Assembly: GCF_014218275.1 (NCBI RefSeq)
Contig: NZ_AP023213.1
Coordinates: 3,889,501 to 3,953,500, forward strand
Direction: 5' to 3'
Length of the DNA stretch: 64,000 nucleotides
Source of the DNA: Citrifermentans bremense
GTDB taxonomy: Bacteria > Desulfobacterota > Desulfuromonadia > Geobacterales > Geobacteraceae
Below the pieces are notes generated by a model, which had not been told where the DNA came from, did not search any database, and saw only the letters and a program-made list of their open reading frames with translations. Positions 2,445 to 46,614 of the stretch are shown in pieces (position 1 is the first letter of the stretch; each line of letters begins with the position of its first letter). Both the position numbers and the translations under genes were made by a program.

Positions 2445-3462
2445 TGGGGGTTCCTCCGGCGGGCTCGACCTCGCCGATGCAGGCGGCGAAAAGCCCCTGC
2501 GCAGCGGCGCGGGAGAGGAAGTCGCGGGCGTCGTCGGGGGCGAAGGTTATCAAAAGCCCCCCCGAGGTCTGGGGATCGAAGAGCGGCAGCAGAGGGTCGC
2601 CGCTGTTTCCTGAGACGTGTGTTTCGTAGTGCTGACGATTGCGGTAGCACCCCGCGGGGACGAGACCGTCATCGATGAGAGCCGCTACCCCCGGGATGAC
2701 CGGCACCCGCGCCAGCTCGACCTTGAAGCTCACCTTGGCGCCGAGAGCCATCTCGCAGGCGTGGCCGATGAAGCCGAACCCGGTCACGTCCGTTGCGGCC
2801 GTGGCGCGGCAAGCGACCATGAGCTCTGCGGCCTGCGCGTTCAAGGTGGTCATCCAGCGGGTTGCCTCCGCCGCCACTTCCGGCTCGATCATCTCCGCCT
2901 TGATCGCCGTGGAGACGATGCCGGTTCCCAGCGGCTTCGTGAGGACGATGAGGTCGCCGGGGCGGGCGGTGCAGTTTCTGACCACGCGCCCCGGGTCGAT
3001 GAGGCCGGTCACCGCGAGCCCGAACTTGAGCTCGTTGTCCTCCACCGTGTGTCCCCCGACGAGGCAGGCGCCGGCCTCCTTGAGCGCGTCCGAGCCACCG
3101 GCGAGGATTGCGGCCAGGACCGACGTGGGGAGCGAGCAGGCCGGGAAAAACGCGAGGTTCATCGCCGTCACCGGTCTTCCCCCCATGGCGTAGACGTCCG
3201 AGAGGGCGTTGGCCGCGGCGATGCGGCCGAAGGTGAAGGGATCGTCCACCAGCGGCGTTATGATGTCGGTGGTCTCCACCAGGGCGAGGCTCTCCCCAAT
3301 CCGGTAGATGCCGGCGTCCTCCGCCCCTTCCACCCCCACGATGAGGTTGGGGTCGTCCGAGCGCGTTATGTCATGAATGGCTTCTTCCAGGCCCGCCGGG
3401 CCCAGCTTGGCAGCTCAACCGGCCGCCTGCACCATCGTGGTGAGCCGTACTTTGTCAGTCAT
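2431..3462 (-). CDS. selD: Selenide, water dikinase with selenocysteine (UGA recoded)
   Basis: Makes selenophosphate from selenide and ATP, the selenium donor for Sec-tRNA and selenouridine. The uninterrupted frame starts only at 3339, but the family N-terminus lies upstream in the same frame: ATG 3462 gives [15 protein letters not shown], then TGA (3415-3417), then [13 protein letters not shown]. This is the normal SelD active-site region, where Cys or Sec is followed two residues later by an essential Lys; here U16 and K19. Recoding gives 343 residues, a normal length. Later motifs include [18 protein letters not shown] and [10 protein letters not shown]. The gene overlaps the downstream ATPase gene. 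A separate explanation, sequencing error or nonsense mutation, is unlikely because Sec at this exact position is well known in the family. Confidence 0.93.
3389..3403 (-). promoter_or_regulatory. Candidate bacterial SECIS hairpin in selD mRNA
   Basis: In the mRNA, 11 bases after the in-frame UGA, GGGCCC and GGGCCU can pair around a GGC loop. A hairpin close behind the UGA is what SelB needs for selenocysteine insertion in bacteria. The position fits; the fold was judged by eye and loop specificity differs between species. Confidence 0.5.
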
Positions 3463-3472
3463 GACCACTCCT

Positions 3473-3672
3473 TAAAATCTGGGGCTAGGGGCTAAAATCT
3501 GGGGCTAGGGGCTGGGGGCTAGAGGCTAGCAAACCCTTTTCTCGTCCCTGATCCGTAACACCTTTTTGCCTTTGCCAGCCGCTAACCCCTGCTCCCTAGT
3601 CCCTGTTTTGTCTACCAGTCCCTAGTCCCTGGTTCTTTACCAGTTCCTAGCCCCTAGTCCCTAGCCCCTGTT
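3473..3672. repeat. G-rich/C-rich paired repeat (GGGGCTAGGGGCT family), copy 1
   Basis: The left part (3474-3530) contains a perfect tandem of a 20-base unit, AAAATCTGGGGCTAGGGGCT, followed by further GGGGCTA-type units. The right part (about 3585-3672) contains CCCTAGTCCCTAG-type units, the complement. The two parts could pair into one long irregular hairpin of about 200 bases filling the selD-alr gap. A second copy with the same left/right design lies at 54699-54777. The G-runs could also form G-quadruplexes. Confidence 0.7.
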
Positions 3673-3673
3673 T

Positions 3674-4813
3674 TTACCCAAGATACACCCTGCGCACGCG
3701 GCGGGTGGCTATGCCGCAGAGTACCTCGTACGGTATGGTTCCGGCTTTCTCGGCCATCTCCTCGGCGCTGATGCAGTCCCCCATGGGATCGGGCCCGAGA
3801 AGCGTCACGTCGTCCCCTACCGCGACTCCCTCCACGTTGGTGACGTCCAGCATGATCCAGTCCATGCAGACTGTGCCGGCCACCCTTGCCCGCTGCCCCC
3901 GGATCAGCGCCTCGCCCTTGTTGGTGAGGCTGCGGCAATAGCCGTCGGCATAACCTACGGGCACGCTCGCGATCAGGGCGCGCTGACTGGCCACGTAGCG
4001 CCTGCCGTAGCTGATGCTGGTGCCGGGCTCCACCCATTTGAGCATCGCCACCCGGCTTTTCAGGCGCATCACCGGCTGCGACGGAACCTGCCCCTCGAAG
4101 TCGCCTGAGGGAAGCGCGCCGTAGAGGATGATGCCGGGGCGGGCCAGGTTGCAGTAAGGGAGATCCTGGGCAAGTATGGCGGCGCTGTTGGCGACGTGCA
4201 CGTAGGCAGGCGCGTACCCCTGACGGCGCGCCTCTTCGACGGCGGCGTTGAAACGCTCGGCCTGAAGCTTCGTGAAGGCGATCCCGTCCGGGTCGAGTTC
4301 GTCGGCGCTGGCGAAATGGGAGAAGATACCCTCAAGCTCCAGGTTCTTGAACTGTTTCAGCTGGGCCAGGAATTCCGGGACCTCGTGATACGGGACCCCG
4401 AGCCGCCCCATCCCGGTGTCCACCTTGAGATGGATGTGCGCCTTGCGGTAGCACTTGATCTCCAGCGCAGCCCGGTCCAAGGCCGCTGCCTGCTCCAGGG
4501 AGAAGAGCGCAGTGGAGATGTTCAGGCCGATGCAGCGCCTCTCCTCGCCGGGGTAGATCCCTCCCAGAATCAGCACCGGACGAGTGATGCCGCTCATGCG
4601 CAGCTGCACCCCTTCTGCAAGGAAGGCGACCGCGAAGGCGTCAACGCCGAGCTTTTCCAGCTCTTCCGAAACGTATTGAAAGCCGTGCCCGTAGGCGTCC
4701 GCCTTGACCACGGCCAGAAGGCCGCACCCTTCGGGGACCCGCTTTTGCACCAGGGAGAAATTGTGCCGCAGGGCGGCGAGATCTATCTCGACGACTGTAG
4801 GACGACTGTCCAT
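3674..4813 (-). CDS. alr: Alanine racemase
   Basis: PLP enzyme that interconverts L- and D-alanine for peptidoglycan. The chosen start, ATG 4813, gives [19 protein letters not shown] and 379 residues, the usual length; the frame is open further upstream to a TTG at 4906, but that extension has no family counterpart. The PLP lysine lies in [10 protein letters not shown] near residue 40, and the catalytic tyrosine region SISYGRRY near 270. VGYADGYCR and the C-terminal RRVRRVYL also fit. No strong ribosome-binding site precedes 4813, so the start is the weakest part of the call. It is divergent from the thiamine genes across about 110 bases. Confidence 0.93.
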
Positions 4814-4949: not shown

Positions 4950-4965
4950 TACGCGCAGCCACTGA

Positions 4966-5053
4966 GCCAGCTAGGGGAGTTCGCAGGAACTGAGACAGGC
5001 GCGGCCTGAACCCTTTGAACCTGATCCGGTTGACACCGGCGTAGGGAAGCGGC
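4966..5053 (+). promoter_or_regulatory. TPP riboswitch (THI element) aptamer
   Basis: It contains the invariant parts of the thiamine pyrophosphate aptamer: GGGG, CTGAGA (4990-4995), ACCCTTTGAACCTGATC, a CCGGT-TGAC-ACCGG hairpin, and GCGTAGGGAAGC. P1 can form between GCCAGCT (4966-4972) and AGCGGC (5048-5053); AGTTC and GAACT form P3. A perfect complement, GGAGTTCGC (4976-4984) with GCGAACTCC (5054-5062), links the aptamer to the downstream platform as an alternative pairing. Binding of TPP should favour the terminator that follows and lower thiED-thiC expression. The nearest downstream genes are exactly thiamine genes. Confidence 0.97.
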
Positions 5054-5078
5054 GCGAACTCCGACCTGTTCATCTGCG

Positions 5079-44926: not shown

Positions 44927-45002
44927 GCCGGAGTAACTCAGTTGGTAGAGTAGCTGATTCGTAATCAGCAAGTCGGCGGTTCGAGTCCGCTCTTCGGCTC
45001 CA
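44927..45002 (+). tRNA. tRNA-Thr (CGU)
   Basis: 76 bases with encoded CCA. Acceptor GCCGGAG pairs with CTTCGGC (one G-T pair). The D arm reads GTAACTCAGTTGGTAGAGTA. The anticodon stem is CTGAT/ATCAG around loop TCGTA, giving anticodon CGT (reads ACG). The T arm is GGCGG-TTCGAGT-CCGCT-like. The anticodon identifies threonine. Confidence 0.96.
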
Positions 45003-45009
45003 CAAAAAA

Positions 45010-45034
45010 GCCCCCTCAACCCGAGGGGGCTTTT
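45010..45034 (+). terminator. Terminator of tRNA-Thr
   Basis: GCCCCCTC and CGAGGGGGC pair around AACC and are followed by TTTTCCTTTT, eight bases behind the CCA end. A6 precedes it, so it could also work on the minus strand. Confidence 0.88.
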
Positions 45035-45056: not shown

Positions 45057-45256
45057 AAAAAATTGAAAGGCCCGCCGGGTTCGGCGGGCCTCTGGTTGTA
45101 GCGTCTACATTTGGGAACCCTTTTCAAGGGTGGATGCCGGTGCCTATACGGACCGGACAGCTACAGCTTTCAAGTTTTGAGAATCCTGATCGGTGGAGTT
45201 TCCTCTATGGTCGGTTGCCTCCTTCTTCGAGATTTCTCTTAGCTAGCTAGCTGAGT
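45057..45256 (-). ncRNA. Candidate small RNA A (AGCTAGCTAGCT family)
   Basis: About 200 bases. A possible -10 (GATACT, 45267-45262) precedes a start near 45256. The RNA then has AGCTAGCTAGCT, ATCTCGAAGAAGGAGG, GAGGAAACTCCACCGA, a CCGGT...ACCGG hairpin, a CCCTTGAAAAGGG hairpin and a terminator GGCCCGCC-GAACCC-GGCGGGCC followed by a T-rich tail. All these elements recur in the same order in candidate B at 46157-46343, although much of the sequence between them differs. This is the pattern of a conserved structured RNA. No gene follows within reach on this strand, so it is unlikely to be a leader. Confidence 0.6.
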
Positions 45257-45461
45257 GTTACAGTATCATCGGGCGCACCAAAGAAACAGTCTGTTTAAAT
45301 TTTTTTTTTGCCTGTATACTGCTCCAGTTGCCCCCTCCAAAAGCCCTGCCTTTGTCTATGAGCAAACGCTAACCTGCCCATGCAGTACCTGAACCACCTG
45401 CGGACTCTCTGTGGCTGTCCAGCTGCACTCACAGCTCGGCCACGACGTTCCAGAGTCTCAA

Positions 45462-45995
45462 TCAATTGTACAGTGCAGCCGTTCTGGAAGTGTTGTTCAT
45501 GGCCCCGACGCCCGTGCTGGTTACCTCGACGCCACCTTTGCTCCGCTGTGCCTGGTACTGTGTCACGTTGCCGTGATCGTTGAATGAGGCAACCGAGTTG
45601 CCGCTCTTGACGTTCCAGTCGATGGAGAGCGTATCGAGATGGGTGTCGCCCCGGTAATGGTTGAAGGTATAGGTGACCGTGTCCCCGTTTTTGCGGGCGT
45701 TCACCTGGAAGCGTTCCCCGTTTTCCGCGTACTGGAAATTCTTCTCTCCCTGCGCCACGGGGTTGTTGCCGCTCCAGAACTCGATGGTGTTGAAGAGGAC
45801 GAAGTCGACGAGCGCGGCTATGCCGTACACCGGCACGATTATGAAGACCCAGGTGACAAGACTGCGCAGGAACTTGTCGTGCACCTCGCCGTTGACCCGG
45901 TACACCTTTTTGGTCAAGGCCATCTTCCCGTAGCACCCCTGGAGCGAAGCCATGGCGATTACCATGGCAAGTACCGTTGCTGTTACTCTTTTCAT
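45462..45995 (-). CDS. DUF3332-like lipoprotein
   Basis: The protein has 177 residues from ATG 45995, with AAGGAGG seven bases upstream. The signal MKRVTATVLAMVIAMASLQG ends in lipobox LQGC, giving a mature lipoprotein starting CYGKMALTKKVYRVNGEV. A membrane or hydrophobic stretch follows (LVTWVFIIVPVYGIAALVDF), then NTIEFWSGNNP and a beta-rich C-terminus. This sequence plan is that of the DUF3332 family, whose function is not known to me. The gene stands alone on the minus strand between two related RNA elements; candidate RNA B ends about 160 bases upstream of it. Confidence 0.82.
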   Translation of the reverse strand: MKRVTATVLAMVIAMASLQGCYGKMALTKKVYRVNGEVHDKFLRSLVTWVFIIVPVYGIAALVDFVLFNTIEFWSGNNPVAQGEKNFQYAENGERFQVNARKNGDTVTYTFNHYRGDTHLDTLSIDWNVKSGNSVASFNDHGNVTQYQAQRSKGGVEVTSTGVGAMNNTSRTAALYN

Positions 45996-46104
45996 GATTC
46001 CCTCCTTTTGCATTTAATTGTTCCCATGCCATCCTCCTCTTTAGAAGAAGAGCAGACGGGTGAAGGTTACCCCCACTGCGGGGAAAACCTCTCTATGAAA
46101 ACCG

Positions 46105-46121
46105 TTACCGATTTCCGGTAA
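46105..46121. promoter_or_regulatory. Palindromic operator-like site upstream of the DUF3332 gene
   Basis: TTACCG-ATTTC-CGGTAA is a perfect 6-base inverted repeat lying about 110 bases upstream of the lipoprotein start codon and 36 bases behind RNA B. It has the size of a dimeric regulator site; no regulator is identified. Confidence 0.35.
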
Positions 46122-46156
46122 TAGTCACTGCTATCACATTTGTGCGGCGAGGTACA

Positions 46157-46343
46157 AAGAAAAGAGGCCTGCTCTTATGCGCGGGCCTCCTTTTGTTTGT
46201 TCGATCCCTCGTTGCAGGGGTCACTCCAGTGCTTCTCGCACCGGATTGGTTACTTCTGTCTTGTAATGGGAATTCTCTTCGGTGGAGTCTCCTTCGATAT
46301 TGCTACCTCCTTTTTCCGAGATCCTGTTACAGCTAGCTAGCTG
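46157..46343 (-). ncRNA. Candidate small RNA B (AGCTAGCTAGCT family)
   Basis: About 187 bases. An extended -10 (TGGTATAGT, with TATAGT at 46355-46350) precedes a start near 46343. The RNA has AGCTAGCTAGCT, GATCTCGGAAAAAGGAGG, GAAGGAGACTCCACCGA, a CCGGTGC...GCACTGG hairpin, a CCCT...AGGG hairpin, and a terminator GAGGCC...GGCCTC followed by TTTTCTTT. Element order is the same as in candidate A. Six GGA triplets, several in likely single strands, resemble CsrA-binding RNAs. Since it ends 160 bases before the DUF3332 start it could alternatively be a terminator-controlled leader of that gene. Confidence 0.62.
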
Positions 46344-46614
46344 TGCTTAACTATACCACCTATCGAGGGTTTTCACAGAGAGTGTCAATTTTTTTCTTGA
46401 GCATGTGCATCATCGCTATGACTCAAAACTACCCTCCCTGCTTGAGAAGACATCGCCCAACTGCGGCGTGGAGACTGGACTTTGAAGATGTGGATGCTAA
46501 AATCCGTTGGTGCATTAGCCGGGACTTATACTCCGGCAGTGATCCCGGAAAAGCTGCCACAGCAAGGGCGGATGCACCGGGGTGGCAACTACAGCGTTGA
46601 GAGCGGGAGCCCAA

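Follow-up and report, generated by a model that had tools for sequence, protein, structure and literature searches.

Several described systems resemble the RNA family analysed here in part. Dual-function sRNAs of the SgrS/SgrT type are small structured transcripts with a terminator and a short ORF, while attenuator leader peptides are encoded by a short ORF with a Shine-Dalgarno site ahead of an intrinsic terminator. The gene infC starts with AUU, a start that IF3 discriminates against, and the CsrB/RsmZ sponges are small structured RNAs with GGA motifs. With SgrS/SgrT the RNA family shares a small, structured, terminator-ended transcript and an apparent short ORF, but its peptide would be shorter, its start codons and their spacing are weak, there are several copies per genome and no base-pairing target is known. 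With leader peptides it shares the short ORF and Shine-Dalgarno site ahead of an intrinsic terminator, yet it stands alone, without a conserved downstream gene. Like infC, it combines a near-cognate AUN start with a strong Shine-Dalgarno site; here, however, these belong to putative stand-alone micro-ORFs across an order, in which they alternate with AUG at other spacings. The likeness to CsrB/RsmZ lies in the GGA motifs of a small structured RNA, but CsrA is absent from most of the genomes of the genus that have the RNA family. A general survey of dual-function sRNAs is available (Friedman et al. 2017, PMC5521070).

A preliminary description of the window (the whole stretch of 64,000 nucleotides of Citrifermentans bremense DNA that was analysed) proposed that two homologous minus-strand units of about 190 nt, with the same elements in the same order, flank a DUF3332 gene and represent an unnamed conserved structured RNA. 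Both proposals were borne out. The units and their surroundings are as follows.

45057-45253, minus strand: RNA copy A; start placed by the -10 spacing, end at the terminator end
45057-45092, minus strand: intrinsic terminator of A, from the fold and the terminator scan
45260-45309, minus strand: promoter-like region of A, by motif only (A-tract 45294-45309; ACAGACTGT 45286-45294; weak extended -10 TGATACTGT 45260-45268)
45462-46013, minus strand: DUF3332 (PF11810) gene, E 1.1e-43, between the copies and not tied to the RNA family elsewhere
46156-46343, minus strand: RNA copy B; start placed by the -10 spacing, end at the terminator end
46156-46190, minus strand: intrinsic terminator of B, from the fold
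46350-46398, minus strand: promoter-like region of B, by motif only (A-tract 46383-46398; CTCTCTGTGA 46373-46382; extended -10 TGGTATAGT 46350-46358)

Mean column identity between A and B was 75% over an alignment of 292 columns, flanks included, and the folds of A (z -4.00) and B (z -3.86) were each better than those of 200 out of 200 dinucleotide shuffles. This likeness is not due to chance, because a blastn search with copy B matched 20 of the 48 genomes of the bacterial family, including all 19 of the genus. Both copies end in intrinsic terminators, as had been claimed; that of A was returned on the minus strand by the terminator scan and that of B is a hairpin of the minus-strand fold, the scan giving its stem in plus-strand orientation only. 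The claim of a -10 element near each start stood for B, where the element is good, but less so for A, where it is weak, and a sigma-70 consensus scan detected neither. Among 103 distant copies, the extended -10 TGNTANANT was present in 42, against 1.35 in shuffles. As a separate gene with a promoter (by motif only) and a terminator of its own, the RNA family is in this respect laid out like a dual-function sRNA.

A covariance model of the core (R1) was searched over the order, giving matches in 34 of 141 genomes at E<=0.1. A second model (R2), which took in the new members, matched 116 of 277 genomes of the class at E<=0.01; 112 of these were among the 141 genomes of the order and four among the 136 outside it, with one to six matches per positive genome. 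A pattern run over species genomes returned 15 records; these carry the names Geomonas, Citrifermentans and Geomesophilobacter or, in the case of MAGs, Geobacter. At the gathering thresholds of Rfam 15 no family was found on window copies A and B, and at 17 loci with relatives the RNA family was likewise unmatched, the two matches there (tmRNA, c-di-GMP riboswitch) lying elsewhere. We found no description of the RNA family in the literature. Earlier detection under another name is possible, for instance among the G. soli sRNAs tabulated in PMC6013743, whose coordinates could not be placed, or the three predicted CsrB-like sRNAs of G. sulfurreducens (PMC11934962). The RNA family is real and broader than the preliminary description claimed, and that it is a structured RNA we regard as close to certain.

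The predicted fold comprises a 5' hairpin (H1), a core stem (P1) and two further hairpins (H2 and H3) ahead of the terminator.

45241-45253, minus strand: hairpin H1 of A (CAGCTAGCTAGCT), stem covarying in relatives
46329-46344, minus strand: hairpin H1 of B (ACAGCTAGCTAGCTGT), from fold and covariation
45179-45238, minus strand: core stem P1 of A (arms 45231-45238 and 45179-45185), enclosing the ribosome-binding site
46269-46324, minus strand: core stem P1 of B (arms 46316-46324 and within 46269-46282), by inspection less well paired than that of A
45137-45156, minus strand: hairpin H2 of A (CCGG...CCGG), from fold and covariation
46226-46244, minus strand: hairpin H2 of B, from the fold
45117-45131, minus strand: hairpin H3 of A (ACCCTTGAAAAGGGT), from fold and covariation
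46204-46221, minus strand: hairpin H3 of B, from sequence position

It had been claimed that pairing is kept where the sequence between the elements differs. Two copies cannot decide this, and the 5' domain of 15 relatives, mostly of the genus, was conserved without covariation; with distant relatives, however, the claim found support. Across 17 diverse sequences, 32 cells were changed on both sides against 13.1 when shuffled, and the covariation score was 0.214 against 0.105; in neither case was any of 500 shuffles as high, and slid controls reached at most 0.094. The number of pairs changed on both sides was 11, which 16 of the 500 shuffles equalled. P1 was paired in only 61.8% of the cells of this alignment because its register slides, and P3, the pairing of the Shine-Dalgarno site with CUCC, showed no double change among the 17 sequences. 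Using 16 sequences, P1 pairing with its own arm had a mean energy of -8.2 kcal/mol, compared with -4.9 kcal/mol with the arms of other genera, the margin being small in some (seven of 15 foreign arms were as good for g12 and four of 15 for g5). RNAalifold on 34 copies from the genus returned only 15 pairs, which we attribute to misalignment of hairpin 2 between A and B by MAFFT.

The palindrome near the start, earlier proposed as a dimerisation site, is the stem CAGCU/AGCUG of the 5' hairpin, which elsewhere reads CAGGU/ACCUG or CAGAU/AUCUG. In relatives this stem changes on both sides and the loop need not be palindromic (CAGGU-AGCU-ACCUG and CAGAU-AGAC-AUCUG). Both a DNA operator and a dimerisation site were rejected as roles for the palindrome, the conserved feature in relatives being the covarying hairpin instead.

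The surroundings of the RNA vary from locus to locus. At 17 loci, 30 neighbouring proteins comprised seven without a Pfam match and others from unrelated families, including DEAD helicase, histidine kinase, GlnD, acetate kinase, topoisomerase I, lipid A acyltransferase, HemE, NadA, Dus and transposases, and simple ORF calls placed the next gene in convergent orientation in about eight of 23 copies. A regulated same-strand gene directly downstream, as expected of a leader-attenuator, was not found. The RNA and DUF3332 lie on different contigs in four genomes (G006, G019, G024 and G026), and two more (G025 and G027) have the RNA with no DUF3332 match. The suggestion that B could be a leader of DUF3332 does not hold up, since elsewhere the RNA family adjoins unrelated genes. 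As the neighbours differ between loci, the copies look like stand-alone transcripts, and stand-alone genes make the trans action suggested earlier plausible for both A and B. A genome of another genus (G035) likewise has two matches beside DUF3332 (L159 214-1777), of which that at 870 is weak, and this neighbourhood may therefore be older than the window's genus.

The preliminary description spoke of small RNAs and missed the ribosome-binding site and ORF formed by AAGGAGG and the triplets after it. That these RNAs are non-coding is probably wrong, as the core reads as a short ORF: AAGGAGG...CTCCACC appears to be a Shine-Dalgarno site followed by [M/I]-[E/D/A]-[D/E]-T-P-P. In the window, the parts concerned are these.

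45218-45224, minus strand: Shine-Dalgarno sequence AAGGAGG of A
45170-45208, minus strand: putative micro-ORF of A, ATA...TGA (IEETPPIRILKT), 12 codons from a near-cognate start that lies 9 nt after GGAGG
45195-45198, minus strand: CTCC of A (P3), part of the Thr-Pro codons and a potential pairing partner for GGAG in the Shine-Dalgarno sequence
46306-46312, minus strand: Shine-Dalgarno sequence AAGGAGG of B
46221-46298, minus strand: putative micro-ORF of B, ATC...TGA (IEGDSTEENSHYKTEVTNPVREALE), 25 codons from a near-cognate start that lies 7 nt after GGAGG
46284-46289, minus strand: GACTCC of B, a possible P3 partner that is absent from B's own minimum-energy fold

Coding signals were assessed in 104 copies from 100 regions among the matches listed by R2, a sample that leaves out the window's genus, unlisted matches and some of the listed ones. 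Counts of 103 drop one copy with a gap at the anchor and include a few badly anchored frames (L173, L196 and L202; L173 was entered as UUG at 18 despite an AUA at 8), the recount of pairing and start classes used 101 copies, and pN/pS was calculated from 87 distinct cores.

Where the window copies read AUA and AUC, some distant members have AUG; the codons that come next specify E/D, D/E, Thr, Pro and Pro. The entropies at the three codon positions in the 104 copies were 0.42/0.79/1.73, 0.32/0.82/1.61 and 0.53/0.62/1.90 for codons 1-3, 0.69/0.43/0.46 for Thr, and 0.73/0.16/1.26 and 0.23/0.08/1.85 for the two Pro codons. This three-base rhythm extends no further than about codon eight, and an exception to it is the conserved third base of the Thr codon, which is ACU in 78 of 82 ACN codons, though any third base would serve. 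The second Pro codon was CCA in 33, CCG in 26, CCT in 20 and CCC in 13 of 103 copies. In the 87 cores, the ORF frame had a pN/pS of 0.58, and the two others had 1.18 and 1.26; stops occurred in one, 19 and 19 cores, respectively. The frame signal was strong for copies with AUG, UUG or GUG (0.38 vs 2.93 and 1.80) and weak for those with AUC, AUA or AUU alone (0.71 vs 0.88 and 1.02). At the second Pro codon of the AUC/AUA copies, third-base entropy was 1.97, against 0.61 and 0.53 at the first two bases.

Within the window's genus the frame signal was modest, with a pN/pS of 0.51 for A-type ORFs and 0.64 for B-type ORFs; summed entropies showed the rhythm in A-type (3.1/5.8/8.7) and no clear rhythm in B-type (11.3/9.5/11.8), so that the coding basis of B is weak. 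B-type ORFs are shifted by one base relative to the TPP frame and would give a different peptide, alike in 13 copies and without TPP; in the window's B, the TPP frame is also open from an AUA 5 nt after GGAGG. In some copies of the genus the start position is occupied by UUA or ACG. Beyond about six or seven conserved residues the predicted peptide varies, with a length of 8 to more than 30 codons and a variable C-terminus. The coding statistics describe the RNA family as a whole, being strongest in AUG copies, weaker in AUC/AUA copies and weakest in B. Judging from these substitution patterns, translation of the micro-ORF is highly probable for the RNA family; for window copy A the balance tips towards it, and for B our confidence is lower.

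The start triplets fall into distinct groups. Of the 103 copies, 47 have NUG in frame (AUG, UUG or GUG), 54 have AUC, AUA or AUU only, as do both window copies, and two have neither; when more than one AUH or AUG triplet was in frame, the count used the triplet closest to the Thr codon. In 37 of 40 cases AUG lies either 5 nt (12 copies) or 10-15 nt (25 copies) downstream of GGAGG, and in the other three at 6-9 nt, whereas AUC, AUA and AUU lie at 6-10 nt in 54/54 copies and at 6-9 nt in 50 of them (p 4e-18 by copy). When each combination of genus, class and spacing was counted once, 3/23 AUG and 24/27 AUH starts fell at 6-9 nt (p 7e-8); both p-values overstate the difference because the copies are related. 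UUG, in copies without AUG, has a spacing of 8 in five of six cases. The classes are mixed, with nine genera containing AUG as well as AUH copies and more than one class occurring in each of 16 genomes, and in 34 copies of the window's genus no AUG, GUG or UUG was found at 5-13 nt. IF3 discriminates against AUU, AUC and AUA as start triplets (PMC4611024). Weak initiation may be a conserved trait of the RNA family, a suggestion that is not firm because a spacing of 5 nt may be adequate.

The Thr-Pro codons are predicted to mask the Shine-Dalgarno site in part. Predicted pairing of the site with codons 4-6 exceeded 0.5 in 56/103 full-length folds and 66/103 local folds, with a median predicted accessibility of the site of 0.20. 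The exact register GGAG:CUCC exceeded 0.5 in only 29 of 101 copies (median 0.02). A second register, GGAGG with CCNCC, is also present, and part of the Pro-Pro conservation may consequently reflect RNA pairing.

Our preferred reading, to which we assign a probability of roughly 0.6, is that these are stand-alone micro-ORF RNAs with low, tuned translation that is partly masked by their own Thr-Pro codons. Each transcript of about 190 nt would be expressed from its promoter-like region, stop at its terminator and fold, as family covariation suggests, into the 5' hairpin, a core stem around the Shine-Dalgarno site, two further hairpins and the terminator. The strong Shine-Dalgarno site would be coupled to a start kept weak on purpose: AUG with an unusual spacing, or else AUC, AUA or AUU (or UUG) 6-10 nt away. 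Ribosomes would initiate on the micro-ORF rarely and under regulation, perhaps slowing at Pro-Pro, and this may then open or close the core, after which the RNA, its peptide or both would act in trans. For the window, the predicted products are a TPP peptide of 12 residues begun at AUA for A and a diverged peptide of 25 residues begun at AUC for B. That the effect runs through ribosome gating, the mechanism we favour, rather than through a free peptide or plain antisense pairing is a tentative view that we put somewhat short of an even chance.

Among the alternatives, the CsrA/RsmA sponge suggested by the preliminary description is the least credible. The copies carry a median of five GGA triplets (range 2-10, 104 copies) and the window's own genome has CsrA, but the GGA count is only slightly above the 4.0 of shuffles, and CsrA was found in just 3/19 genomes of the genus (3/18 examined with a second model) and 11/47 of the bacterial family, against 19/19 of the genus for the RNA. 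As CsrA is missing from 16/19 genomes of the genus, a sponge was rejected as the shared function, and we consider it most improbable. The gene csrA is itself patchy within this one genus, the three genomes that have it being G000, G024 and G027. Scarcely better placed, and very unlikely in our view, is a transcription attenuator in which leader peptide and terminator control the next gene: the leader-like ORF, the intrinsic terminator and the position of B upstream of DUF3332 would suit it, but the downstream genes are unrelated and partly convergent, and A is followed by a tRNA gene on the other strand.

A purely non-coding, trans-acting sRNA, perhaps bound by Hfq, deserves more weight. CUCCACC would then be the seed for the ribosome-binding sites of target mRNAs, and the ORF-like pattern would be ancestral and disused in the window's genus. 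This would fit the stand-alone genes, the Hfq gene in 46/47 genomes of the bacterial family, the strong nucleotide conservation of ACTCCACC in the genus, the lack of AUG, GUG and UUG at 5-13 nt in the genus copies examined, and the weak frame signal in AUH copies and B-type ORFs. It sits poorly with wobble bases that are free among AUC/AUA copies too, with the AUN triplet at 6-10 nt in every AUC, AUA or AUU copy, and with synonymous changes that turn CUCCACC into CUCCGCC; we judge it unlikely. To the same degree we doubt that a free micropeptide is the active product, with the RNA structure only regulating its synthesis. The N-terminal residues are conserved across the order, which speaks for such a peptide, but the conserved stretch is short, length and C-terminus vary widely, and 13 B-type ORFs of the genus are without TPP.

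Tuned, weak initiation on stand-alone micro-ORF RNAs, which we continue to favour, would replace the earlier picture of non-coding CsrA-binding RNAs. The RNA family amounts to a widespread set of genes for an RNA and a putative micropeptide, present in metal-reducing bacteria and organisms related to them, that Rfam 15 lacks. The copies offer a natural test both of AUC and AUA as start codons and of a trade-off between start codon and spacing. If the micro-ORFs are translated, they would offer a way into how initiation fidelity is controlled in bacteria other than the usual models. A more speculative extension, against which the odds lean clearly, is that these RNAs form a conserved, order-wide class of stand-alone sensors for the state of translation initiation, each gating a masked micro-ORF that begins [M/I]-E-D-T-P-P. 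The Shine-Dalgarno site would be strong and the start poor in two interchangeable ways, as AUC, AUA or AUU at normal spacing or as AUG at abnormal spacing. We know of no other family with AUC and AUA as regular start codons.

Several minor observations concern individual genomes and the rest of the window. G015 and G014 have three R2 matches each, the third copy of G015 lying between DUF3332 and copy A (L002 2547-2725) with UUA at the start position. In G025 (85% complete), which has no DUF3332 match, two copies stand in tandem (L005 1556-2099), one of them with an insertion that resembles an internal duplication. One copy in G033 lies between two transposase genes (L156 2572-5409), and on L158 a member of the RNA family follows the tmRNA gene at a distance of about 315 nt, both being on the plus strand (3333-3686 and 4001-4132). 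In the window itself, the tRNA gene just downstream of copy A occupies 44927-44999 on the plus strand and is followed by a strong terminator-like hairpin (45006-45034), and a TPP riboswitch (RF00059, 72 bits) lies at 4963-5064 on the plus strand.
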